Source of the DNA: Gammaproteobacteria bacterium
Lineage (GTDB): Bacteria > Pseudomonadota > Gammaproteobacteria > Thiohalobacterales > Thiohalobacteraceae
Assembly (NCBI GenBank): GCA_002699185.1
Contig: PABG01000138.1
Location: 1 to 48,991, forward strand
DNA: 48,991 bases
Reading direction: 5' to 3'
Shown: piece after piece, positions 1 to 11,552 of the stretch
How positions within the stretch are numbered: the stretch's first letter is position 1
How the letters are laid out: each line of letters opens with the position of its first letter
Program-made: the position numbers and the translations under genes
Notes under the pieces: model-generated
What the model saw: the letters and a program-made list of their open reading frames with translations, nothing else
The model's database searches: none
What the model was told of the DNA's origin: nothing

Positions 1-195
1 AGGTTGATCGCATTCAGCTGATATTGCACCCTCATTATTGCAACAGGCCCCGCCGATGAAGCCGAACACCGCTGGGTACATGGGTAAGCAGCAGGGATTG
101 AACGCGGTGATCAGACCGCCGAGCACGACCAATGGCAGGGCCAGCAGGGAGCCCCCAGTCAAAAACGGTGTCAGCCATACGGCGAAAGCATCCAT
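1..195 (-). CDS. CcdA/DsbD-type membrane electron carrier, N-terminal part (cut by window edge)
   Basis: The 65 visible residues begin with ATG at 195 and run off the window. They hold a first hydrophobic segment (about residues 14-32) followed by the motif N-P-C-C-L-P-M-Y-P, which resembles the P-C motif in the first membrane helix of CcdA/DsbD transporters. Those proteins pass thiol electrons from cytoplasmic thioredoxin to the cell exterior. An extra C-C pair lies near residue 50. The gene starts 3 nt after the stop of a thioredoxin-fold gene, so the two are probably a redox pair at the end of a metal-regulated operon. The family call is good, but the exact subfamily is not resolved because most of the protein is missing. 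Confidence 0.7.
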   Translation of the reverse strand, partial: MDAFAVWLTPFLTGGSLLALPLVVLGGLITAFNPCCLPMYPAVFGFIGGACCNNEGAISAECDQP

Positions 196-198
196 GCG

Positions 199-606
199 CT
201 ATTGCCGAAGCAGATCGTCAATCTGAGCCAGCGCCTGCGCCAGCCTTTGTTGCACTGCCGGGCTTTCGCCAACGATACGTCCCACTTCCTTATCGTGACG
301 GTCGACAAAGACAACCGTGGGGAGAAAACGTATCTGATAGTGTTTTATCAGTGGGTTGTCCGCGGACCAGTCCAGTTGGGAAAAGTGGATCTGTTTGCCG
401 TGACGGGCCGCCGCTTGATCCACCAAGCGGTGAACGGCCTGGCAGCTTGGACTGTTGTCGCCCCGAAACAGGATCACCGCCGGGCCTTCGACCTGTGTTG
501 ATGACGGGGTTATGGATGCGGACTGCTGTTGCCAGGCCTTCCAGCCCAACACGGCGCCGACAATGACGAGTATAAACAGGCTGGGGCCGACATGTTTCAA
601 TGACAT
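199..606 (-). CDS. Membrane-anchored thioredoxin-fold protein with a single active-site cysteine
   Basis: This is a 135-residue protein with one N-terminal membrane segment (about residues 8-24), so the thioredoxin domain should lie outside the cytoplasm. The domain shows beta-strand V-I-L-F, then N-S-P-S-C at residues 51-55 where thioredoxins have C-x-x-C, and the conserved cis-proline in F-L-P-T-V (Pro96). Only the second position of the usual pair is a cysteine, so it cannot form the normal intramolecular disulfide. A good ribosome site (AAGGTGA) precedes the ATG. It lies between the MtrA-like gene and the CcdA-like gene. It may relay thiols to, or bind, a metal or a partner cysteine; this role is inferred. 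Confidence 0.75.
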   Translation of the reverse strand: MSLKHVGPSLFILVIVGAVLGWKAWQQQSASITPSSTQVEGPAVILFRGDNSPSCQAVHRLVDQAAARHGKQIHFSQLDWSADNPLIKHYQIRFLPTVVFVDRHDKEVGRIVGESPAVQQRLAQALAQIDDLLRQ

Positions 607-623
607 GATTCACCTTTGTCGGT

Positions 624-1775
624 TTAGCACCCGCAACCCGTTGCATCCTGTTGGGTGCTTGTACTTGGCGTAGGTTCCATCTCACCCGGCGCTCGGTCCT
701 GCACATAGTCGTCACCGCTTTGCATCGCGTGTTCCGCACGAGCCAGTTCGCGTCCAAGATAGGCGGCGTGATCCAGACGACTGATGAGTCCGGCTTCGAT
801 GACGCTGGTATATAAAGCTGCGGCTGAGATGGCGGTGAACATTCGGTCCAGCACACCCTTGTTGCTGTAATGTTCCAGTACCAGTCGTCGCTGGCCCCGA
901 TCCGGGTAGACGACGAAATAACCCGCGGGGTCCAGGACCAGCTTGCCGGGTTCCTTAGCCGCCTCTATGGGTACCGGTATGACGTCAGACGGGGCGTCGG
1001 CAAACGGACCGGGATCATGACGCGCGGAATCAGTGATCAAACTCCGCAGGGCGAGCACATCGGTACTACCAATTTGCGTAATCACTTGCACCTGCCGGCG
1101 AAACGCCTCGACATGCTCAGCATGAATATTCTTCAACAACGGGCGTTTACCCTTGGACTCGATGATGCGCATTTTTTCATTAACACCATGTTGCATCAGG
1201 GCAAGCAGCGACTGTCCCGGTAAATGGCCTATCGCCTTGCGAGTGTCTTCACCGCAGAGAATCAGGAATCGAATGTGTGGGTTGGCCAGGGTGTTGCGGA
1301 TCAGATGTTCGATGCCGAGATTTTCCGTATGCAGGCTGCCGACAATCGACAAACCGTCAATTGTTGTCTCGGTCAGCGCCTTGATCAGGTGATCGGAGTT
1401 GAGCGTGCACACCGCTACCGGCGCCCGGAAGCGTACGATCTGATAGTCGCCGGGCAAGGGTGGCCAGCCTTCGCGTTGTTCGGGTTCCTCCGTGGCACAA
1501 TGGCTGCCTTCAGCGACGGCCGGGTCAAGTTCAGCCGCCAGGTTTTGCGCCACGGCGGGCCAGCACACCTCGCAGCCCAAACAGTCGTAACGTTTTGGCT
1601 CCAACAAACCGTGGGCTTCGCTCAGCAACGTCCCCAGGGATTCGTTGATCGCGGCGGATGCCTGCAATGTACTGACCGTGTCCTGATAACAGCCGCAGCG
1701 CCAACACTTTTTCGCCGCCATCGCCGCGCGAAGTTCTGTCTCGATTTTTACCAATAGTTTCGGTGATTGGGCCAT
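624..1775 (-). CDS. MtrA-like corrinoid-binding protein with Cys-rich N-terminus and DUF4346 C-terminus
   Basis: The protein has 383 residues from the ATG at 1775, chosen because it starts 4 nt after the upstream stop; a longer in-frame reading has no support. Residues 24-71 hold C-x2-C-x-C and C-x2-C-x2-C clusters of iron-sulfur type. Residues about 102-275 match subunit A of tetrahydromethanopterin S-methyltransferase: E-G-W-P-P-L-P-G-D-Y, T-E-N-L-G-I-E, I-R-F-L-I-L-C-G and G-H-L-P-G-Q-S. His184 in the last motif aligns with the His84 that ligates cobalt of the cobamide in methanogen MtrA. Residues about 283-383 resemble DUF4346, and the chain ends in G-C-G-C. Mtr partner subunits are absent. 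Context points to metal or metalloid chemistry, but the reaction is unknown. Confidence 0.8.
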   Translation of the reverse strand: MAQSPKLLVKIETELRAAMAAKKCWRCGCYQDTVSTLQASAAINESLGTLLSEAHGLLEPKRYDCLGCEVCWPAVAQNLAAELDPAVAEGSHCATEEPEQREGWPPLPGDYQIVRFRAPVAVCTLNSDHLIKALTETTIDGLSIVGSLHTENLGIEHLIRNTLANPHIRFLILCGEDTRKAIGHLPGQSLLALMQHGVNEKMRIIESKGKRPLLKNIHAEHVEAFRRQVQVITQIGSTDVLALRSLITDSARHDPGPFADAPSDVIPVPIEAAKEPGKLVLDPAGYFVVYPDRGQRRLVLEHYSNKGVLDRMFTAISAAALYTSVIEAGLISRLDHAAYLGRELARAEHAMQSGDDYVQDRAPGEMEPTPSTSTQQDATGCGC

Positions 1776-1779
1776 GATA

Positions 1780-2169
1780 CTAGCGCTTACAGTTCCCCGC
1801 GCAGGCACGCTTCTTGGCGCGAAAATCCCACACGGAAGCAAAGACCAACGCAATGAAACCAGTCAGCTCCAATGGCTTTGAATAGGTGCCGTAGAACACC
1901 CACAAAAGCAAGGCAGCAGACGTGATACTCAGCAATAGTGGGCCGGGGTGCCGATGTACGCTATAGGAATACCCCATACCCGCCAATGCCAGCAGCAGCA
2001 GGCCGCTAACCAATTCTACCAGCAGGCTTTCGTCGATCTCGATGCCGTTACCCATAACGGAAAGCAGCGCGACCGCAGCCAGGGTGCCGTAGCACGTCAA
2101 TACCGCAAGCAGGCTGGCCGCAGATCCAACCCAGGAATAATCCTTTCTATTCGATGTCGTATTTGCCAT
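1780..2169 (-). CDS. MerC-like four-helix membrane protein
   Basis: This 129-residue protein has four predicted membrane segments (about residues 14-36, 45-66, 74-94 and 98-114), the size and layout of MerC-family mercury carriers. One cysteine lies in the first helix (T-C-Y-G) instead of the Cys pair usual in MerC, and two more lie near the C-terminus (C-A-G-N-C). A strong ribosome site (CAGGAGAG) precedes the ATG. It follows the CadC-type regulator gene and ends 4 nt before the MtrA-like gene, so it should be co-transcribed and may carry the ion or compound that the operon handles. MerC membership is inferred from topology and context and is not certain. Confidence 0.55.
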   Translation of the reverse strand: MANTTSNRKDYSWVGSAASLLAVLTCYGTLAAVALLSVMGNGIEIDESLLVELVSGLLLLALAGMGYSYSVHRHPGPLLLSITSAALLLWVFYGTYSKPLELTGFIALVFASVWDFRAKKRACAGNCKR

Positions 2170-2234
2170 CTTCGCTCTCCTGTATGCCTAGTCGTTTTCG
2201 CAAGCATCGAAATGATTAGCTGACAAAAAACACG

Positions 2235-2621
2235 TCATCCGAGCCGTGCCTCCAGCATTTTCAAATCGCCCTTGAGCGCCTTGAGTAAATCAGCGCTATG
2301 CAGCCGGTAGTACACCATCTTGCCGTCATCGCGTTTACGCAACCAACCCTGGTCCCTCAACAGTTTCAACTGATGCGAAGTGGCGGCGATGCTGAGGCCG
2401 AGCACATGGGCGATGTCGCAGACACACAACTCCCCTTCCGACAGAGCGAGCAGGATTTTCAGCCGGGTCGTATTGCCAAGCAACTTGTAAAAGTCTGCCA
2501 GCTCCGGGAGGCGTTCTTCCTCCCGGGCCAAGCTGGCCCGAACAGCGTTAACCTTGTCATGATCGAAGCAAGGGACAGTACACACGTCCCGATGTTTACG
2601 TAACGATGTGGTATTTTTCAT
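2235..2621 (-). CDS. ArsR/SmtB-family metal-responsive repressor, CadC type
   Basis: The 128-residue winged-helix protein carries the ArsR signature L-C-V-C-D-I-A at residues 65-71, followed by the recognition helix S-I-A-A-T-S-H-Q-L. Cysteines 14 and 18 (i, i+4) and 66 and 68 (i, i+2) match the spacing of the thiolate site of CadC (Cys7, Cys11, Cys58, Cys60), which senses Cd, Pb and Zn by leaving DNA. The ATG at 2621 is preferred over the one at 2633 because the latter falls inside the operator and about 10 nt from the predicted transcript start. It is the first gene of the operon continuing to position 1 and probably represses itself and that operon. The actual ligand, including any organometal, is unknown. 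Confidence 0.88.
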   Translation of the reverse strand: MKNTTSLRKHRDVCTVPCFDHDKVNAVRASLAREEERLPELADFYKLLGNTTRLKILLALSEGELCVCDIAHVLGLSIAATSHQLKLLRDQGWLRKRDDGKMVYYRLHSADLLKALKGDLKMLEARLG

Positions 2622-2627
2622 AATTAA

Positions 2628-2678
2628 TATCATTTCGATGAATGCGATAATGATAAGCTGGGGATAAATTTAGGTCAA
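2628..2678 (-). promoter_or_regulatory. Sigma70-type promoter with overlapping inverted-repeat operator for the CadC-like operon
   Basis: On the minus strand TTGACC (2673-2678) is followed by a 17-nt spacer and TATCAT (2650-2655). The -10 box overlaps the right arm of an inverted repeat, TATCATT (2628-2634) and AATGATA (2649-2655), separated by 14 nt. A repressor bound here would block polymerase, as expected for ArsR-family control. The -35 box ends only 2 nt from the end of the IS4 element. Confidence 0.6.
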
Positions 2679-2783
2679 GACACTGCTGTCCCATTAACGA
2701 AGCATAAAAAAGGCCTGGAAACCCACTTGTTTAGATACAATGAAATCGCGACAAGTCATTGGAAAAAAGAAGGAGAACAGGCC

Positions 2784-4208
2784 TTGGCTCATCATAATAC
2801 CGTGTTTTCTCAGTTACTCGAACTGGTCCCGAGACATGAATTTGAAACCCTGGCAAATCAGCACCATGAAGGCCGGAAACTGCGCAAGATGACGCGCTGG
2901 TCACAGTTCGTCGCCATGGAGCTCGCCCAGTTGTCCGGGCGCAACAGTCTGCGCGATGTGGTCAGCAATCTCTCCGCGCAGACCGGCAAGCTCTACCATC
3001 TCGGGACCGCGCTGATCAGCCGTTCCTCGCTGGCCAGAGTTAACGAACAACAACCCAGTGCGCTGTTTGAAGCCTTGTTCACCAAGCTGCTGGCACGCTG
3101 CCAAGGCCGCGCACCGCGCCATGGCTTCCGCATCAAAAACAAGCTCTACTCCCTCGAGGCCTCAACGATCGATCTTTGCTCCAGTGTCTTCCCTTGGGCC
3201 CGGTTCCGCGCCACCAAGGGCGCGGTCAAACTGCACGTCGGCCTGGATCATGACGGTTTGTTGCCGGCGTTCATGAACATCACCGATGGCAAGACGCATG
3301 ACATCACCGCCGCCCGTGGCATGCGGCTACCCAAGGACAGCACCCTCGTCGTCGATCGCGGCTACACCGATCACGCCTGGTATATGACATCAATATCTTC
3401 TTCGTGACCCGACAGCGCCGAAACGCCGTGTATCAGGTCGTGGAGCGCCACGCTGTCCTCAAGGCCAAGGGGCTGAGCAGCGACCAGACCATTTGCCTGA
3501 CCGGCACCAAGGCCAGGGAATATCCGATTCTGTTGCGCCGTATCGGCTACCGCGACGCGGCAACCGGCAAGCACTATGTCTTCCTGACCAACAACTTCAA
3601 ACTCGCCGCCAGCACCATCGCGGCGATTTACAAAGCCCGCTGGCAGATCGAGTTGTTCTTCAAGTGGATCAAACAGAACCTGAAGATCAAGAGCTTCCTC
3701 GGCACCTCCAAAAACGCCGTGATGACCCAGATCTGGACCGCCGTGTGTATCTACTAATGAGAACGTAAGTAAGGCGACACTCAGGGCTTCAAGCCGCGTC
3801 TGCATCAAGGCGCGGTGCGCCGGGAATGGCCCAGCCCTTGCCAAGCACCGCAACGCCGAGGCGGACGCGGCTTGAAGCCCCTGACAATCTGATTCTGGAA
3901 ATGACAGGCCGTTGTGTGCTCACGTACGCCTGCGTTACCGAAGCTTGCTGTAGAAGTGCTACAGCGGCGCTTCGCTGCCTTGGCCTGCGTGAGCACACAA
4001 CGGCTGAGTGTCGCCTTACTTACGTTCTCATTAGTATCTGTTGCTGGCTTATATCAAGCTCGTCAGTCAGATCGGTAGCAGCCTTCAGCAGATGCTGCGA
4101 CTGCTCCAGCTAAATCTGTTCGAACGGCGCGATCTCTTGCCACTATTGCGGGGCGAGCCGCCGGACCCAGCGACCTCAAATCTTCAGACCACCTTGCGGT
4201 TCTCGTGA
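2784..4208 (+). pseudogene. IS4-family DDE transposase, broken by a frameshift and a MITE insertion
   Basis: The likely start is TTG at 2784, 9 nt after AAGGAG, giving the usual N-terminus A-H-H-N-T-V-F. Catalytic residues are visible: Asp in A-S-T-I-D-L, Asp in V-V-D-R-G-Y and Glu in R-W-Q-I-E-L-F-F. The frame breaks near 3381-3403: after H-A-W-Y the original frame soon stops, and F-F-V-T-R-Q continues in another frame. It is broken again at 3753 by the MITE; joining 3753 to 4037 restores a continuous C-terminus (C-I-Y-L-L-L-A-Y-I-K) to the stop at 4206-4208. The element can no longer make an intact transposase. Confidence 0.9.
3754..4034. mobile_element. 281-bp MITE-like element with 31-bp terminal inverted repeats and TA target duplication
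   Basis: The ends are perfect 31-bp inverted repeats (3754-3784 and 4004-4034) starting CTAATGAGAACGTAAGTAAG. A TA flanks each side (3752-3753 and 4035-4036), and removing the element with one TA restores the transposase frame. Inside are two more hairpin arms: 17 bp at 3784-3800 with 3864-3880, and 16 bp at 3909-3924 with 3988-4003. It has no coding capacity. TA duplication is the mark of IS630/Tc1-mariner transposition, so it was probably moved in trans by such a transposase, which is not in this window. Confidence 0.85.
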
Positions 4209-4228
4209 AAGTTTATGGGACAGCAGTG

Positions 4229-4432: not shown

Positions 4433-5317
4433 ATGGGTCATGAACATCACCACAATACACAGGCACTGGGCGATCGGCGCCTGGGCTGGGCGATCGCCGT
4501 CAACCTGTTGCTGACTGTGGCCCAGGTCATTGGCGGCCTGGTCTCCGGCAGTCTGGCACTGATCGCCGATGCCCTGCACAACTTCAGCGATGCGTCCTCC
4601 CTGCTCATCGCCTGGGTGGCGCGACGCATCGGCCGCCGGCCACCCGACCGGTTGCGCACCTTCGGCTACAAGCGGGCGGAGGTCATTGCCGCCCTGATCA
4701 ATCTGACCACGCTGGTGCTGATCGGCCTGTACCTGATCTACGCGGCCATGTGGCGGATGTTCGAACCCCAGGTCATCGAGGGCTGGACGGTGATCATTGT
4801 CGCCGCCATCGCCCTGGTAGTGGATATCGTCACCGCCCTGCTCACCCACAGCCTGGCCCGGAACAGCCTGAACCTGCGCGCGGCCTTCCTGCACAATGTC
4901 TCGGATGCCATGGCCTCCGTGGGCGTGATCCTGGCCGGCAGCCTGATCCTGCTCTATGGCTGGTACTGGAGCGACACCCTGCTCACCCTGCTCATTGCCG
5001 GGTATGTGCTCTACCAGGCCGCAGGCACCTTGCCGGAAACCATTCATCTGCTGATGAGTGGCGCCCCGGCGGACATCAGCGTCGAGGAGGTGGCTGGCGT
5101 CATGGAAGCCATCCCGGGTGTACGGGACGTGCATCATATCCATCTCTGGCGTATCGACGAGCACCATAATTCTCTCGAAGCGCATGTGGTAATCGACGAT
5201 TACGCCCATACCGATGCGGTCAGAACGCAACTCAAGCAGGCCCTGGGGGAGCGGTTCGACATCCATCATTCCACCCTGGAATTCGAACTACGGCCCTGCC
5301 CCGCGCCGCACTGCTGA
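4433..5317 (+). CDS. czcD: Cation diffusion facilitator (CzcD-like zinc/cadmium/cobalt exporter)
   Basis: The 294-residue protein has a His-rich start (G-H-E-H-H-H), six membrane segments and a C-terminal ferredoxin-like cytoplasmic domain. Metal-site motifs are present: A-D-A-L-H-N-F-S-D in helix 2 and F-L-H-N-V-S-D in helix 5, supplying the H and D ligands of the transport site. The C-terminal domain has H-H-I-H-L-W. These proteins exchange protons for divalent cations across the inner membrane into the periplasm, where a CBA pump can take over. It is the first gene of the plus-strand block that continues with the czc genes. No strong ribosome site precedes the ATG. Zn/Cd/Co specificity is assumed from the family. 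Confidence 0.92.
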   Translation: MGHEHHHNTQALGDRRLGWAIAVNLLLTVAQVIGGLVSGSLALIADALHNFSDASSLLIAWVARRIGRRPPDRLRTFGYKRAEVIAALINLTTLVLIGLYLIYAAMWRMFEPQVIEGWTVIIVAAIALVVDIVTALLTHSLARNSLNLRAAFLHNVSDAMASVGVILAGSLILLYGWYWSDTLLTLLIAGYVLYQAAGTLPETIHLLMSGAPADISVEEVAGVMEAIPGVRDVHHIHLWRIDEHHNSLEAHVVIDDYAHTDAVRTQLKQALGERFDIHHSTLEFELRPCPAPHC

Positions 5318-5421
5318 GCGGCGACGAACACGGGTTCAGCAACCACCAACGCCGATGGCGCCCGGATTGTACGGGCGAGGCAATTTGCATTGCCGGTATC
5401 AGCGGATTAACATGCTTCTCC

Positions 5422-5745
5422 ATGCAGCGGATACTCGCCAAAGCCCTGGTGTTCTTCATCCTGTTCGCCAACCTCTCCTGGGCCGCGGACCTGCAGGCTG
5501 TCGACCCCGGTCACGATCCAGCCGACACGCATCTGACTGATGATACGGGCGGCGGGCACAGCGACGACTCCGATATCCCGCCCCATGTCTGCGATCACTG
5601 CTGCCACGGCAGTGCCCACTATGTCGGCATCCCCCCGGCAGCGACCATCGCCGCCGCCAGTCCCGTTTCCCTCTTCCCTGCCGGTCTGACCCGGCAACTC
5701 CGGTCCCACGCCGGCGCCCCGCCTCTGCCACCCCCCAATATCTGA
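5422..5745 (+). CDS. CzcI-like small periplasmic metal-responsive protein
   Basis: This 107-residue protein has a signal peptide (F-F-I-L-F-A-N-L-S-W-A-A, cleavage near residue 21) and a short mature chain rich in His and Asp, with the motif H-V-C-D-H-C-C-H-G near the middle. Size, export signal and position directly before czcC match CzcI and related proteins, which modulate expression or activity of czc pumps in other bacteria. The H/C cluster could bind Zn, Cd or Cu. No clear ribosome site was seen. The CzcI label rests mainly on synteny. Confidence 0.6.
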   Translation: MQRILAKALVFFILFANLSWAADLQAVDPGHDPADTHLTDDTGGGHSDDSDIPPHVCDHCCHGSAHYVGIPPAATIAAASPVSLFPAGLTRQLRSHAGAPPLPPPNI

Positions 5746-5823
5746 GCCTCTCCAGCACGATTGCACGGCCACCGCCGAGGCGGACGCCTGTCATCTTCAT
5801 TTGCTACCAGAGGCCCGGAAACC

Positions 5824-7194
5824 ATGCCTTTATTCCATCCGCAGGGATGGCGCACGTCGGCGTACACACCGACCGGACGCTATCATTTCAATAGGCTGCG
5901 CCTGTATGCCGCCGGTCTGCTGCTTGCCCTCAGCATCCCGAGCGGCCCCGTCAATGCCCAGCCGCCGACCGCCGCCGGCCTGCCCGACCCCCTGACCCTG
6001 CAGGCGGCCGTGGATCAGGCCCTGCAGCACAATTACGCCATTCGTGCCGCCGCCGCCGAGGTGCGCCGCTTCGAAGGGGAGGCCGTCCATGCCGGCCGCT
6101 GGGTACCGTCCAACCCCGTCCTCGACGTGAAGAGTGCCGAGCGCGATGCCCCCGGCGGGACCTCCACCGATATCGGCATCAGCCTGGCCCAGGAAGTGTG
6201 GACCGGCGGTAAACGCCGGTTGCAGGCGTCCGCGGCGGATGCCCGCAGCCAGGCGGCGCGCGGCCGGCTGGAGTTTCTGCACACCAGCACCGCGGCGCGC
6301 ACCCGGCGCGCCTTCCTGCAGGTACTGCTCGCCCGCGAGGCCCGGCGCACCGGCCAGCGTCTGCTCACCGCCGCGCAGGAGCTGCAGCGCTATACCCGCC
6401 GCCGCCTGGAAGCCGGCGAGGCCACGGCGCTGGCGGTCAACACCGCGGCCATTGGTGTGGCCCGGGCCCGGGCCGAGCTGAGCCGCGCCGACCGGGATCT
6501 CACCCGCGCCCGCCTGGCGCTGGCCGAACTGCTGGCCGTGGACCCGGGGCAGGACCTGAACCCCGCCGGCCGGCTGCAACCCGTCGCGCTGGAACTGCCG
6601 GACCGGGAGACGCTGCTGCAGCGCTCACTGGAGCGGCGCAGCGACCTGGCCGCCGCCGCCCAGGCGGTGGTCGCCGCGCAGAAGGAGCTGCAGCTGACCC
6701 GCCGCCAGCTGATCCCCAACCTGACCATCATGGGCTTCTACGAGGAGGAGGAATCCGCCGAGATCCTGGGCGGCGGCCTGTCCGTATCCCTGCCGCTGCT
6801 GCATCGCTACCGCGGCGAGCAGCAAAGCGCCAGCGCCCGGCTGCAGCAGGATCAGGTGGCACGCGACGCCCTGCGCCTGCAGGTACGCCGCGAGGTGTTG
6901 CAGGCCCTGGCCGACTACCGGTCGGCCCGGGAACAGGTCGAGGTCGCGGGTGAAACCATGCTCAGCGCCGCCGAGCAGAACCTGGCCCTGACCCGCACCG
7001 CGTTCCGCGCCGGCAAGGTCGGCGCCCCGGCCATCACCACAGCCCAGGACAATCTCCTCAGTGTGCGCCGCACCTACCTCACCGCGCTGGAGGAACTCAT
7101 TGTCGCCGGTACCGCCCTGGAGAGCGCCACGGGCGGTCTCATCCGCATGCACCAGGGCGTGTCTCAACCCGCTTCCCAGGAGTCCACCCGATGA
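5824..7194 (+). CDS. czcC: CzcC-like outer membrane factor of an RND metal efflux pump
   Basis: The 456-residue protein has a basic N-terminus and signal sequence (L-L-L-A-L-S-I-P-S-G-P-V-N-A, cleavage near residue 47), then two repeats of the TolC-type outer membrane efflux domain with long Ala/Arg/Gln-rich coiled helices. It forms the trimeric outer membrane channel of the CBA complex. The ATG at 5824 follows AGAGG, and earlier in-frame codons lack support. It overlaps czcB by 4 nt (ATGA), so the two are translationally coupled. Confidence 0.9.
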   Translation: MPLFHPQGWRTSAYTPTGRYHFNRLRLYAAGLLLALSIPSGPVNAQPPTAAGLPDPLTLQAAVDQALQHNYAIRAAAAEVRRFEGEAVHAGRWVPSNPVLDVKSAERDAPGGTSTDIGISLAQEVWTGGKRRLQASAADARSQAARGRLEFLHTSTAARTRRAFLQVLLAREARRTGQRLLTAAQELQRYTRRRLEAGEATALAVNTAAIGVARARAELSRADRDLTRARLALAELLAVDPGQDLNPAGRLQPVALELPDRETLLQRSLERRSDLAAAAQAVVAAQKELQLTRRQLIPNLTIMGFYEEEESAEILGGGLSVSLPLLHRYRGEQQSASARLQQDQVARDALRLQVRREVLQALADYRSAREQVEVAGETMLSAAEQNLALTRTAFRAGKVGAPAITTAQDNLLSVRRTYLTALEELIVAGTALESATGGLIRMHQGVSQPASQESTR

Positions 7195-8435
7195 ATACCC
7201 GACACCCGTATCTGTACGTTCTGACCCTGCTTGCCGGCCTGACCCTGCCCGCTGCGGCAACTCAGGCCGCCGAGGACGACCACACCGCCGGGCAGGCGGG
7301 CGAACATTCCGAACATTCCAAAGACACCGACGCCGGCAGGCACGCCGGAGAGGAAAAACACCAGGAAAATGAAGTCCATCTCACCGAGGCGCAGCGCAAG
7401 CGACTCAACCTGAAGGTGGCACAGGCCGAACGCGGCAGCGCCGAGGCCATTGTGCGCCTGCCGGCCACGCTGGCCTTCGACGCCGACCGCGTCGCGCGTA
7501 TCGGACCGCGTCTGCGCGCGAAGGTCGTCAAGGTGGTCAAGGATCTGGGCGAGCGGGTGGCGGCCGGTGAGCCGGTGTTGATCATGGACAGTGTCGAACT
7601 GGGCAAGGCCAAGGCCGGGTATCTCACCGCCCGGGCCCGGCTCAATGCCGAGCAGGCCAATTACAACCGCGAACGCAAGCTGGCCGCGCAGGACATCTCC
7701 AGCAAGGCCGCGCTGCTCGAGGCGCAGGCACGCTATCACCAAGCCCGGGCGGAGCTGGACGCCGCGGTCGAGGAACTGCGCCTCTACGGCCTTTCCCGCG
7801 AGAGCGTCGAGGCCATCGAGGCCGGCGGCGAAATACCGCTGTCGCGCTACGTGCTGACCAGCCCCATCGCCGGCGTGGTGCAACAGCGCGACGTCATGCC
7901 CGGACAGACCGTCGGGCCGGAGACCAGCCCCATCCATGTGGTGGATGACAGCCGCCTGTGGGTCATGATCCAGGCCTATGAGCGGCACATTCCGGCCCTG
8001 GCGCCGGGCCAGCAGGTACACCTGCGCCTGCGGGCCCTGCCCGACGAGACCTTCGCGGGCCGGGTCGACTGGATCTCGCGGGCGCTGGATACCGACTCCC
8101 GCACCCTCAGGCTGCGCGCCACGGTGGCCAACCGCCAGGCGATGCTGCGCGCGGGCATGTTCGGCACCGCCTCGATCCATGTCGCCGAGGGCGGCGAGAG
8201 CGCCCTGGTGCCGCTGGGTGCGGTGCAGACAGTGGAAGGTAAACCGACCGTATTCGTCCCCGGTAATGAGCCGGGCGCGTTCCGTGCCGTAACGGTCGTA
8301 CTGGGCCGGGAATCCGGCGGCCAGGTGGAGGTGATCGCCGGCCTGCATCCCGGCGAGCAACTGGTCGTGGCGGGCGCCTTCGATCTGAAATCCGTAATGA
8401 CCGCCGGTGGCCGCAGTGCCGCCCACAACCACTGA
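7191..8435 (+). CDS. czcB: CzcB-like periplasmic adaptor (membrane fusion protein)
   Basis: The 414-residue protein has a signal peptide (L-L-A-G-L-T-L-P-A-A-A) followed by a His/Glu-rich segment (about residues 26-60, eight or so His) of the kind that binds metal in CzcB proteins. Then come the barrel-sandwich lipoyl halves flanking an alpha hairpin (R-A-R-L-N-A-E-Q-A-N-Y-N-R-E) and a beta-barrel domain. It links the RND pump to the outer membrane channel and may deliver metal ions to it. It overlaps czcC by 4 nt and is followed after 12 nt by czcA. Confidence 0.92.
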   Translation: MNTRHPYLYVLTLLAGLTLPAAATQAAEDDHTAGQAGEHSEHSKDTDAGRHAGEEKHQENEVHLTEAQRKRLNLKVAQAERGSAEAIVRLPATLAFDADRVARIGPRLRAKVVKVVKDLGERVAAGEPVLIMDSVELGKAKAGYLTARARLNAEQANYNRERKLAAQDISSKAALLEAQARYHQARAELDAAVEELRLYGLSRESVEAIEAGGEIPLSRYVLTSPIAGVVQQRDVMPGQTVGPETSPIHVVDDSRLWVMIQAYERHIPALAPGQQVHLRLRALPDETFAGRVDWISRALDTDSRTLRLRATVANRQAMLRAGMFGTASIHVAEGGESALVPLGAVQTVEGKPTVFVPGNEPGAFRAVTVVLGRESGGQVEVIAGLHPGEQLVVAGAFDLKSVMTAGGRSAAHNH

Positions 8436-8447
8436 GGGGGCGCGCAC

Positions 8448-11400
8448 ATGATCGACAAGCTGATAAGGGCGGCTCTCGCCAACCGTTTATTGACCCTGGT
8501 GCTGGTGCTCGGCCTGGCCGGTGCCGGCGTCTATTCCCTGCAACGGGTCCCCATCGACTCCTTTCCCGATGTGACGCCGTCCATGGTCCAGGTATTCACC
8601 GTCAGCCCCGGCCTGTCGCCGGTGGACGTGGAGACGCTGATCTCCTATCCGGTGGAGATCTCCATGTACGGCCTGCCCGGACTGAAACGGGTGCAGAGCA
8701 CCTCCATCTTCGGGCTCTCGCGGGTGAATATCTATTTCGAGGACGGCACCGACATCTACTTCGCCCGCCGTCTGGTGATGGAGCGCCTGGCCAAGGCCCG
8801 CGAAGCCATCCCCAAGGGGCTGGGCGAACCGGAGCTCGGCCCCATCACCACCGGCCTGGGCCGGGTGTTCATGTACACCATCGATAACAAGGAAGGGGCA
8901 AGCCACTCGCCGATGGAGCTGCGCACCGCCCAGGACTGGATCGTCAAACCCATGCTGCGCACCGTCCCCGGCGTCACCGGGGTCTTGTCCATCGGCGGCT
9001 ATGAAAAACAGTACCAGGTGAAACTGGACCAGAACGCCCTGGTGGCACGGGATCTGAGCATTGCCGACATACGCCGCGCCATCGTCGCCAACAACCGCAA
9101 CGTAGGCGCCTCCTTCATCAACCGCGGCGGCGAGGAGTACATCATCCGCGGCTACGGTTGGGTAAAGCCCGGTGATCAGGGGCTGGAGGATCTGCGCAAT
9201 ATCCTGATCCGGGAGCAGGGCGGCACGCCGGTCTATCTCGGCGACGTAGCCGAGGTGAGTTATGGCCCCGCCATCCGCCGCGGTGCCCTGGTGGCCAACG
9301 GCGAAGAGGCGGTGGGCGGCTTCGTGCTCAAGCTCATCTACACCAACACCCAGGAACTGCTGGGTGCGATCGAGGACAAGGTCGCCGCCATCAACCAGGC
9401 CCTGCCCGACGGCATGGTCCTCAATGAGTACTATTCCCAGGGCGATCTGGTCTCCAAGGCGGTGGGCACGGTGGAGAAGGCCCTGCTGGAAGGCGCGGTG
9501 CTGGTGCTGGCGCTGTTGTATCTGTTCCTGGGCAATCTGCGTTCCACCCTGATCGTGATCGCCAGTCTGCCGCTGGCCGTGCTGGTGGCCTTCATCGCCA
9601 TGGACTACGTGGGCATGTCCGCCAACCTGATGAGTCTCGGCGGCCTGGCCATCGGCATCGGGATGATGGTGGACGGTGCCGTGGTCGTGGAGGAAAACAT
9701 CTTCCGCCACCTGGAGGAACGCCAGAACGAGCGGGTCAGCATGAGCCGCCTGGTGGGCGAGGCCGCACGCGAGGTGGCACGTCCCGTGGTATTCGCCATC
9801 GGCATCATCATCATCGTGTTCCTGCCGCTGTTCACCCTGCAGGGTGTGGAAGGCAAGATGTTCTCGCCCATGGCCTATACCATCTCCTTTGCCCTGGCCG
9901 GCGCCCTGATCATGGCCCTGACCCTGGTGCCGGTGCTCTCCAGTCTGGTGTTCTCCCGGGGCAGCGCCCACGGCGAACCCCGGCTGGTCAGCTGGCTCAA
10001 GAATGCCTACCGACCGATCATCCGCACTCTGGTGGAACGCCCCAGGGCGGTGTTCGGCACCGCCGTGGCGGTATTCGCGGCCAGCCTGGCCCTGTTCCCG
10101 TTTCTGGGGACGGAATTCGTGCCGACGCTGCGCGAGGGCACCTTCTTCGTGCGCTCGACGCTGCCGCCCGGCACCAACCTGGACAAGTCCATCGAATACT
10201 CCAGGCATATCCAGGGGATCTTCGATGAGTTCCCCGAGGTTACCGGTACCTATGCCCGCGTCGGTCGCGCCGAGGTTGGGGGTGATCCCGAGCCGGTGAA
10301 CGTGGTGGCATCGCTGGTGGCGCTCAAACCGCTCGATAAATGGAAAAGCGGGCGCAGTTATGAACAACTGCAAAGCGTCATGGCCGAACGGCTGCAGGCC
10401 GAGCTGCCGGGGTTGGCCAACAACTTCTCCCAGCCCATTGCCCTGCGCACCGACGAGTTATTGTCGGGCATCATGGCCCAGGTGGTGATCAGTCTGTATG
10501 GCGACGATCTCGACGAGCTGGCCGAATACGGCGAGAAGATCCAGCACATCGCCAGACAGGTCGATGGCGCGGTGGATGTGCGCATGCAACAGCAGGGCGG
10601 CAAGCCGCAGGTCGTGGTACGACCCGACCGCCGGGAACTGGCCCGTTACGGCATCGCCCTGGATGATGTCCTGTCCGCGGTGGAAACCGGTATCGGCGGC
10701 GCCACCGCGGGCCAGGTGTTCGAGGGCATTCGCCGCTTCGATATCTTCGTGCGCCTGGACAAGGATGCCCGCGAGCGGGTCGACCAGATCCGCAGCCTGC
10801 CCCTGCACACCGCCGAGGGCGCGCTGATCCCGCTGTCGCGGGTGGCCGACGTCGACGTATTCATCGGTCCCAAGAAGATCTCACGCGCCAAGGCCAGCCG
10901 GCGGGTGTTCGTGCAGCTCAACGTGCGCGGACGTGACATGGGCAGCGTAGTCGCCGACATCGAACGGCAGGTGGCCGAGAAAATCGATCTGCCGGCGGGC
11001 TACTACGTCGAATACGGCGGTCAGTTCGAAAACCAGCGCCGGGCCATGCAGACGCTGTATATCGTCGTCCCCATCACCCTGGCGCTGATCTTCCTGATGC
11101 TGTTCTCGGCCTTTGGCAGCCTGCGCTATGCGGTGCTGATCTTCCTCAACGTGCCCTTCGCCATCACCGGCGGCATCGTGGCCCTGTGGCTGTCCGGCCT
11201 GTACCTGTCGGTGCCCGGTGCGGTGGGCTTCATCGCGGTGTTCGGCGTGGCGGTGCTCAATGGCGTGGTGATGGTCTCCTACATCAACCAGCTGCGCGAG
11301 CAGGGCATGGAGACGCTGGAGGCGGTGCGGGTCGGCGCCGAACGCCGCCTGCGGCCGGTGCTGATGACCGCCTCGGTGGCCATCCTCGGGCTGATCCCGT

Positions 11401-11552
11401 TGCTGCTGGCCAGCGGCATCGGCGCCAACGTGCAGCGCCCGCTGGCGGCGGTGGTGATCGGGGGGCTCATAACCTCGACCCTGTTGACCCTGCTGGTGCT
11501 GCCGAGCGTCTATCGCTGGTTCGCCGTACCGCGTCGCGAAGCCGAAATCTGA
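8448..11552 (+). CDS. czcA: CzcA-like heavy-metal RND efflux pump
   Basis: At 1034 residues with twelve membrane segments and two large periplasmic loops, this is a full-length HME-RND transporter: R-V-P-I-D-S-F-P-D-V near the N-terminus is typical. The helix-4 proton-relay motif is A-I-G-I-G-M-M-V-D-G-A-V-V-V-E-E-N with Asp409. Classical Zn/Co/Cd CzcA proteins read D-F-G at the start of this motif, so the substrate may differ from CzcA proper. A GAGGGGG ribosome site precedes the ATG. It is the motor of the CBA complex with the two preceding genes and pumps ions from periplasm to outside using the proton gradient. The ion itself cannot be fixed from sequence alone. Confidence 0.93.
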   Translation: MIDKLIRAALANRLLTLVLVLGLAGAGVYSLQRVPIDSFPDVTPSMVQVFTVSPGLSPVDVETLISYPVEISMYGLPGLKRVQSTSIFGLSRVNIYFEDGTDIYFARRLVMERLAKAREAIPKGLGEPELGPITTGLGRVFMYTIDNKEGASHSPMELRTAQDWIVKPMLRTVPGVTGVLSIGGYEKQYQVKLDQNALVARDLSIADIRRAIVANNRNVGASFINRGGEEYIIRGYGWVKPGDQGLEDLRNILIREQGGTPVYLGDVAEVSYGPAIRRGALVANGEEAVGGFVLKLIYTNTQELLGAIEDKVAAINQALPDGMVLNEYYSQGDLVSKAVGTVEKALLEGAVLVLALLYLFLGNLRSTLIVIASLPLAVLVAFIAMDYVGMSANLMSLGGLAIGIGMMVDGAVVVEENIFRHLEERQNERVSMSRLVGEAAREVARPVVFAIGIIIIVFLPLFTLQGVEGKMFSPMAYTISFALAGALIMALTLVPVLSSLVFSRGSAHGEPRLVSWLKNAYRPIIRTLVERPRAVFGTAVAVFAASLALFPFLGTEFVPTLREGTFFVRSTLPPGTNLDKSIEYSRHIQGIFDEFPEVTGTYARVGRAEVGGDPEPVNVVASLVALKPLDKWKSGRSYEQLQSVMAERLQAELPGLANNFSQPIALRTDELLSGIMAQVVISLYGDDLDELAEYGEKIQHIARQVDGAVDVRMQQQGGKPQVVVRPDRRELARYGIALDDVLSAVETGIGGATAGQVFEGIRRFDIFVRLDKDARERVDQIRSLPLHTAEGALIPLSRVADVDVFIGPKKISRAKASRRVFVQLNVRGRDMGSVVADIERQVAEKIDLPAGYYVEYGGQFENQRRAMQTLYIVVPITLALIFLMLFSAFGSLRYAVLIFLNVPFAITGGIVALWLSGLYLSVPGAVGFIAVFGVAVLNGVVMVSYINQLREQGMETLEAVRVGAERRLRPVLMTASVAILGLIPLLLASGIGANVQRPLAAVVIGGLITSTLLTLLVLPSVYRWFAVPRREAEI

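Follow-up and report, generated by a model that had tools for sequence, protein, structure and literature searches.

Contig PABG01000138.1 of a gammaproteobacterium (assembly GCA_002699185.1) begins with five co-directional genes on the minus strand, which run from position 2633 down to 1 in the order cadC-like, MerC-like, mtrA-DUF4346, thioredoxin-fold and CcdA/DsbD-type. All coordinates are positions in the window, meaning the whole 48,991-nt stretch of the contig that was analyzed. The middle gene, mtrA-DUF4346, encodes a corrinoid-type protein and is the subject of this work. The open reading frames (ORFs) and operon order proposed in a first-pass annotation of this DNA were borne out by the ORFs and by Pfam, NCBIfam and PDB sequence searches, which agreed. 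The features are as follows.

2650-2678, minus strand: sigma-70-type cadC promoter (predicted), -35 box TTGACC (2678-2673), 17-nt spacer, -10 box TATCAT (2655-2650), 10 of 12 consensus positions
2628-2655, no strand: predicted operator O1, a 28-bp palindrome (TATCATT-N14-AATGATA) that overlaps the cadC -10 box and occurs in no shuffled window
2235-2633, minus strand: cadC-like ArsR/SmtB metalloregulator (NF033788, 83.1 bits, cut-off 55; Cys-x3-Cys and ELCVCD), likely start ATG 2621
2192-2215, no strand: predicted operator O2 (TCGTTTTCGCAAGCATCGAAATGA), between cadC and merC-mtrA
1780-2169, minus strand: MerC-like membrane protein, 129 amino acids (Pfam MerC)
624-1775, minus strand: mtrA-DUF4346 corrinoid-type protein, 383 amino acids (Pfam, NCBIfam, PDB sequence match, fold model)
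1476-1742, minus strand: N-terminal seven-Cys helical domain (K-C-x2-C-G-C ... C-L-G-C-x2-C-x-P ... C; invariant columns and model)
978-1475, minus strand: MtrA domain, residues 101-266, with predicted cobamide binding (Pfam, superposition on 5laa)
1224-1226, minus strand: His184 codon; the residue aligns with His84, which ligates cobalt in methanogen MtrA
696-935, minus strand: PterinBD-DUF4346 domain, residues 281-360 (Pfam)
627-635, minus strand: C-terminal tail with Cys-Gly-Cys; in most relatives the tail is Cys-rich (alignment)
199-606, minus strand: membrane-anchored thioredoxin-fold protein in which a single Cys is conserved (S-P-S-C replacing C-x-x-C; Pfam, 24 homologues)
1-195, minus strand: CcdA/DsbD transmembrane-type protein, cut off at position 1, where the contig ends (Pfam)

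The Pfam scores (cut-offs in brackets) were 134.9 bits (25) for MtrA, 82.2 (29.6) for PterinBD-DUF4346, 54.8 (22) for HTH_5/ArsR, 40.3 (27.6) for MerC (PF03203) and 28.8 (23.5) for Thioredoxin; DsbD_TM scored 22.9 bits on the 65-amino-acid fragment of the last gene, against a cut-off of 27.1. The start of mtrA-DUF4346 was placed at ATG 1775, a few bases past the merC stop, and not at TTG 1853, because the latter overlaps merC. The cadC gene probably starts at ATG 2621 and not at 2633, because 2633 falls inside the O1 palindrome.

In MtrA of methanogens, cobalamin is held by His84 on the cobalt, Glu54 hydrogen-bonded to His84, Thr53, Asn55, Gly57, Asn64, Asp17, Tyr18 and a conserved meander (Wagner et al. 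2016, PMC4915002). In the alignments, the counterparts in the window protein are H184, E151, T150, N152, G154, N161, D110, Y111 and a GKRPxLKN segment. T150, E151, N152 and G154 were invariant in 60 aligned sequences, and N161, H184 and Y111 were kept in >90% of them. Among 82-83 relatives, the first four were again essentially invariant, while H184 was present in 80 of 81, N161 in 79 of 82 and Y111 in 75 of 79. An AlphaFold2 model of the protein was made from a 60-sequence alignment without plasmid-collection sequences (predicted local distance difference test score, pLDDT, 87). Its MtrA domain superposed on cobalamin-bound Methanothermus fervidus MtrA (5laa) with a Z score of 25.2 and a root mean square deviation of 1.5 A over 153 residues at 39% identity, and the next unrelated fold had a Z score of 8.7. 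That His184 lies at the cobamide site, which the first-pass annotation had set as a test, is upheld by both the alignment and the fold. The conservation of the cobalamin-site residues is strong evidence for the predicted cobamide binding, and the protein very probably binds a corrinoid. That bacterial MtrA homologues exist, mostly with His84 kept, was noted already in 2016 (PMC4915002). Two shorter MtrA-DUF4346 homologues (L026:8321-9124 and L027:9506-10369) have no Cys domain and read R-H-L-T-G-A at the His motif; the one at L027 adjoins sulfide:quinone reductase- and DsrE-like genes, indicating that a different role is likely.

The N-terminal domain of about 90 residues contains seven Cys (C24, C27, C29, C65, C68, C71 and C93), all invariant in 48 aligned sequences, and not six as first counted. 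This domain is present in every full-length relative and, in 48 host genomes, occurred solely fused to MtrA. It was modeled as helical with confidence (pLDDT 89.4). No Pfam family matched it, and no convincing relative was found in the PDB (best Foldseek E value 5.0; no VIA-align match at Z >= 2), which does not prove a new fold. A match to PsaC (E value 0.32) was rejected as a chance C-x2-C-x2-C motif. At the C-terminal tail, a Cys stands at the aligned CGC position in 57 of 61 sequences, and the Planococcus/Paenibacillus form has several CGC-type repeats inside the protein. For DUF4346, a profile search against PDB sequences gave chance matches only. This domain also terminates proteins of about 500 amino acids resembling dihydropteroate synthase (DHPS), whose opposite end weakly matches the MtrA domain, a hint that the two architectures share an ancestry. 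One ORF of this kind (G466:C129:67920-69311) and similar ones of about 500 amino acids suggest an arrangement of MtrA-like part, pterin barrel and DUF4346.

The regulator, described in the first-pass annotation as a Cd/Pb/Zn-type repressor, has the CadC signature (N-terminal D-x-C-x3-C-F and ELCVCD) and exceeds the cut-off of the generic metalloregulator model NF033788, in agreement with that description. The promoter reported there is also real-looking: its -10 box lies inside the 28-bp palindrome, and three promoter-like sites were found in the region where 0.5 was expected. O1 and O2 are the sole sites with at most one mismatch in the 2.9-Mb genome of the host. CadC-type loci have the palindrome TATCATTTTCG-N7-CGAAATGA in common, and most of them carry a double operator, with one copy before the regulator gene and one about 20 nt past its stop. 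Sites with at most three mismatches numbered 37, compared with 1 in shuffled loci, and across related loci the O1 motif was near an ArsR gene in 13 of its 15 occurrences. A second class of ArsR regulators has its own palindrome, TTACA-N8-TGTAA, which occurs 19 times and in 17 of these adjoins the ArsR gene; a maximum-likelihood tree requires two changes between the regulator classes. An inverted-repeat search without a motif model gave noisy results. Two further lineages have a divergent MerR-family gene; both genes are of the CadR/PbrR Cd/Pb type and score 140.8 and 148.5 bits, below the cut-off of 151.45. That different metal sensors recruited the gene independently makes chance a poor explanation for the link to metals, and judging from these sequences the expression of mtrA-DUF4346 is almost certainly controlled by metal.

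A scan of 84,980 genomes gave 105 relatives, 80 of which were kept as loci; the gene maps and the distance profile cover 82 loci. The relatives span more than 10 phyla, including Gamma-, Beta-, Alpha- and Zetaproteobacteria, Acidobacteria, Myxococcota, Nitrospirota, Planctomycetota, Chloroflexota, Thermodesulfobacteriota, Ignavibacteriota and Bacillota. In the 1 kb upstream of mtrA, 55 ArsR-family genes were found, a density of 0.695 per kb compared with 0-0.08 per kb elsewhere, or about 20 times background. The ArsR gene overlaps mtrA in 29 loci, by exactly 4 nt in 13 of these. Metal-type genes (ArsR, MerR, CzcA, ZntA, CDF, Mer) lie at most 7 kb away at 72 of the 82 loci. A Planococcus plasmid and Paenibacillus naphthalenovorans have a 6.1-kb stretch in common at 99.97%, with genes for ArsR, a CopZ-like protein, a P-type ATPase and MtrA-DUF4346. 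The neighborhood, whose conservation the first-pass annotation had set as a test, is conserved across phyla with shared operators, and its constant core is the metalloregulator and MtrA-DUF4346.

The genes around this core vary. In the clade of the window, the slot between the regulator and mtrA holds either merC or an SMR gene pair. Downstream, the thioredoxin gene (24 of 24) and the ccdA gene (30 of 31) lie within 1 kb of mtrA. In other phyla, an undescribed pair, c5 (an OB-like small protein) and c8 (a membrane protein that is weakly similar to MerT and has the motif GCCGSPM), or else c5 together with an ABC transporter of the FtsX type, takes the place of this pair; c5-c8 was seen at L082:3940-4353, L084:3689-4246 and other loci in Deltaproteobacteria and Planctomycetes. 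The initial label of a thiol operon is too narrow, as the thioredoxin-CcdA pair is one accessory module among several that can replace each other. The thioredoxin-fold protein matches the family by fold and lacks the C-x-x-C redox motif; its single Cys, recognized in the first reading, is invariant in 24 homologues. CcdA homologues, of which a full-length one is encoded at L078:2984-3715, keep the NPCC and PC-x-TP motifs and match DsbD (75.7 bits, cut-off 330) and ArsG (46.8 bits, cut-off 200) weakly; the copy in the window is truncated. The MerC-like protein scored 17 bits against the NCBIfam MerC equivalog (cut-off 140). Other genes were seen beside mtrA. A V4R-domain protein is encoded between the regulator and mtrA at L055:2243-2782, L050, L054 and L044, mostly in Acidobacteria. 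The Planococcus/Paenibacillus P-type ATPase (L020:3518-5455 and L102:7527-9464) reads SCSCSL at the expected CPC metal motif. At L028, a 978-amino-acid ORF downstream of a CDF gene and, at L040, an ORF of 989 amino acids belong to the same cluster and resemble Tn3-family transposases by eye; their position beside the mtrA module suggests carriage by a transposon.

The protein belongs to the NCBIfam family NF002128 (PRK00964.1-6), which it matched over its full length (390 positions) with 534.6 bits, under the curated cut-off of 568 that none of the family matches checked exceeded. A role in methanogenesis or C1 metabolism was rejected. The operon contains no other Mtr genes, as noted from the start, and no MtrH was found in a search of the whole host genome, which is about 79% complete. 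DUF4346 follows the MtrA domain where MtrA of the Na+-pumping complex has its anchor helix, and the neighborhood is one of metal resistance. Control by metal sensors, the conserved neighborhood and the operators together argue that mtrA-DUF4346 is a metal-inducible gene and not a remnant of methanogenesis.

Our preferred reading is that of a metal-inducible detoxification operon with a corrinoid protein as its core product, to which we assign a probability of roughly 0.4. MtrA-DUF4346 would most likely carry methyl groups on a corrinoid and act on a soft metal. Soft metal ions (Cd, Pb or Zn, possibly Hg, by sensor type) would release the repressor. The MtrA domain would carry a methyl group on a His-ligated cobamide, with His184 as the ligand and Glu151 behind it, and the seven-Cys domain with the Cys-rich tail would either hold the soft metal beside the corrinoid or bind an Fe-S cluster that reduces the cobalt. 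The methyl group, from S-adenosylmethionine (SAM) as in HgcAB or from methyl-folate via MetH-like enzymes, would then be handed to the metal. The organometal product would be handled by the interchangeable membrane proteins, such as the MerC-like protein, the SMR pair, the CcdA/ArsG-like protein with the single-Cys thioredoxin, or P-type ATPase or RND pumps. Corrinoid methyltransferases of methanogens methylate several metals and metalloids as side reactions. Methyl transfer to or from a metal or metalloid is somewhat favored, while methylation as the specific direction falls a little short of even odds. The first-pass annotation had suggested metal or metalloid methyl transfer or thiol-dependent detoxification; its His184 site and its neighborhood hold, and the transfer, its direction and the metal are things that we infer.

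Several observations weigh against this reading. Most hosts look aerobic by lineage, which would make Co(I) chemistry harder, and to our knowledge Cd is not readily biomethylated. The Cys domains alone could explain a role in metal handling. A dedicated methyl donor is not among the conserved genes of the operon; MtrH was not found in the host, the sole pterin-binding barrel found there lies within a MetH-sized ORF, and SAM methyltransferases occur near just 9 loci at no fixed position. B12-dependent enzymes were found in 50 of 52 hosts and do not discriminate, because 12 of 14 controls have them too. CobA/BtuR was not found in the host, a result without meaning for a genome that is 79% complete. 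In five regions (the window, L044, L040, L053 and L062), neither a riboswitch nor any other Rfam RNA was detected, and control by a cobalamin riboswitch was rejected.

The same gene set could be read in the opposite direction, with a corrinoid-dependent demethylase that moves methyl or alkyl groups of organometals (alkyl-Pb, -Sn, -Hg or -As) to Co(I), after which the inorganic ion is exported by a P-type ATPase, RND or CDF protein. Methylotrophic methyltransferases routinely demethylate their substrates by corrinoid chemistry, and exporters of inorganic ions are frequent in the neighborhood. MerC is named an organomercurial transporter in NCBIfam, a passage in PMC13064478 cites SMR/SugE for tributyltin resistance, and the CcdA-like protein has its weak ArsG match. 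However, the transporter matches are below the equivalog cut-offs, the regulators come from families that sense inorganic Cd, Pb, Zn or Hg, and no merB-like lyase was noticed in the neighborhoods. We consider a demethylase unlikely.

The protein may instead be a Cys-rich buffer or chaperone on an MtrA fold that binds Cd, Pb or Hg and delivers it to exporters, the cobamide being unbound or structural. The seven invariant Cys and the tail Cys would fit this, as would the Planococcus/Paenibacillus protein with its CGC-type repeats, whose gene lies behind those for the CopZ-like chaperone and the P-type ATPase. Such a buffer would need neither a ligand His nor its Glu partner, yet the His, the Glu, the Thr/Asn/Asn contacts and the meander are the best-conserved part of the protein, and a mere buffer is improbable. 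Least probable is a protein that, under metal stress, stores or shuttles cobamide or methyl groups (e.g., for methionine synthesis) because MetH or thiols are poisoned by soft metals, which would be the stress and not the substrate: the host encodes a MetH-sized protein, the thioredoxin-CcdA and TlpA modules point to thiol stress and DUF4346 also occurs in DHPS-like pterin proteins, but no met or cob genes are conserved adjoining mtrA-DUF4346, mobile cassettes pair it with metal exporters only, and the Cys-rich tail would be better explained as a metal ligand.

Beyond the operon, an IS4-like element (2681-4228; DUF4372/DDE transposase) with 18-nt inverted repeats at its ends stops 3 bp from the cadC -35 box. 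Its transposase is interrupted by a 285-bp element (3752-4036) that contains nested palindromes and has 33-bp inverted ends that match perfectly. The plus strand of 4433-11552 encodes a CDF cation exporter, then an outer-membrane factor, a fusion protein of the CusB/CzcB type and a 1034-amino-acid ORF compatible with an RND pump of the CzcA type, so that a second metal-efflux cluster may adjoin the mtrA operon.

The family itself is not new, as it stands in NCBIfam under a methanogenesis name and its bacterial homologues were noted in 2016. In the open-access literature, the term "DUF4346" was found in no paper, and no description of the metal-resistance context, the operators, the Cys domain or a function was found. 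The results place a protein annotated as a methanogenesis subunit, in bacteria, in metal-resistance operons with their own operators. A B12-carrier-like protein with a Cys-rich part under metal-sensing repressors suggests a B12-dependent transformation of toxic metals that has gone unrecognized. If the corrinoid chemistry is true, these proteins would form a new enzyme class that transforms metals. Such enzymes would matter for what becomes of Cd, Pb, Hg and organometals in soils, mines and sediments, and would bear on which genes make or break methyl-metal species besides methylmercury. A bolder reading, somewhat less likely than not, is a widespread and partly plasmid-borne family of corrinoid enzymes that are dedicated to methylating or demethylating soft metals such as Pb or Cd and are unrelated to HgcA in sequence. 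B12-dependent metal transformation would then have evolved a second time, and the family would offer a way into the genetics of lead and cadmium biomethylation, which is disputed. The gene mtrA-DUF4346 is a defined marker that is testable in culturable hosts (Methylomonas methanica, Dechloromonas hortensis and Anaeromyxobacter oryzae).

Compared with known systems, the operon resembles the CadC, CadR/PbrR and ZntA systems of Cd, Pb and Zn resistance in regulator type, operator logic and adjoining exporters. We know of no described system of this kind that contains a corrinoid protein, and literature searches found none. The name of NF002128, tetrahydromethanopterin S-methyltransferase subunit A, is misleading because the metal-resistance context contradicts methanogenesis. 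With methanogen MtrA (PF04208; 5laa, 5l8x), the window protein has in common the fold, the cobalt-ligand His and the cobalamin contacts; unlike it, the window protein is bacterial, fused to the seven-Cys domain and DUF4346, regulated by a metal sensor and not accompanied by Mtr partner genes, and it has a 3-residue insertion before His184. The dihydropteroate synthase-like proteins of TIGR00284 share the C-terminal DUF4346 and the weak MtrA-region match at the other end but are about 500 amino acids long, have a pterin-binding barrel in between and are not linked to metals. HgcAB, which sets a precedent for metal methylation by a corrinoid protein, transfers a methyl group from cobalamin to Hg with SAM as the donor (PMC11588087), and ArsR-like genes occur near HgcAB (PMC7438021). 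HgcA differs in its corrinoid domain family, in having Cys and not His as the lower ligand, in being membrane bound and in belonging to a two-gene system; in the window protein only the MtrA and DUF4346 families match, a His occupies the ligand position and the model has no membrane helices. What the two have in common is a corrinoid protein with a Cys or Fe-S part linked to ArsR-type regulators, and on this basis mtrA-DUF4346 is proposed as a functional analogue of HgcA/HgcB.

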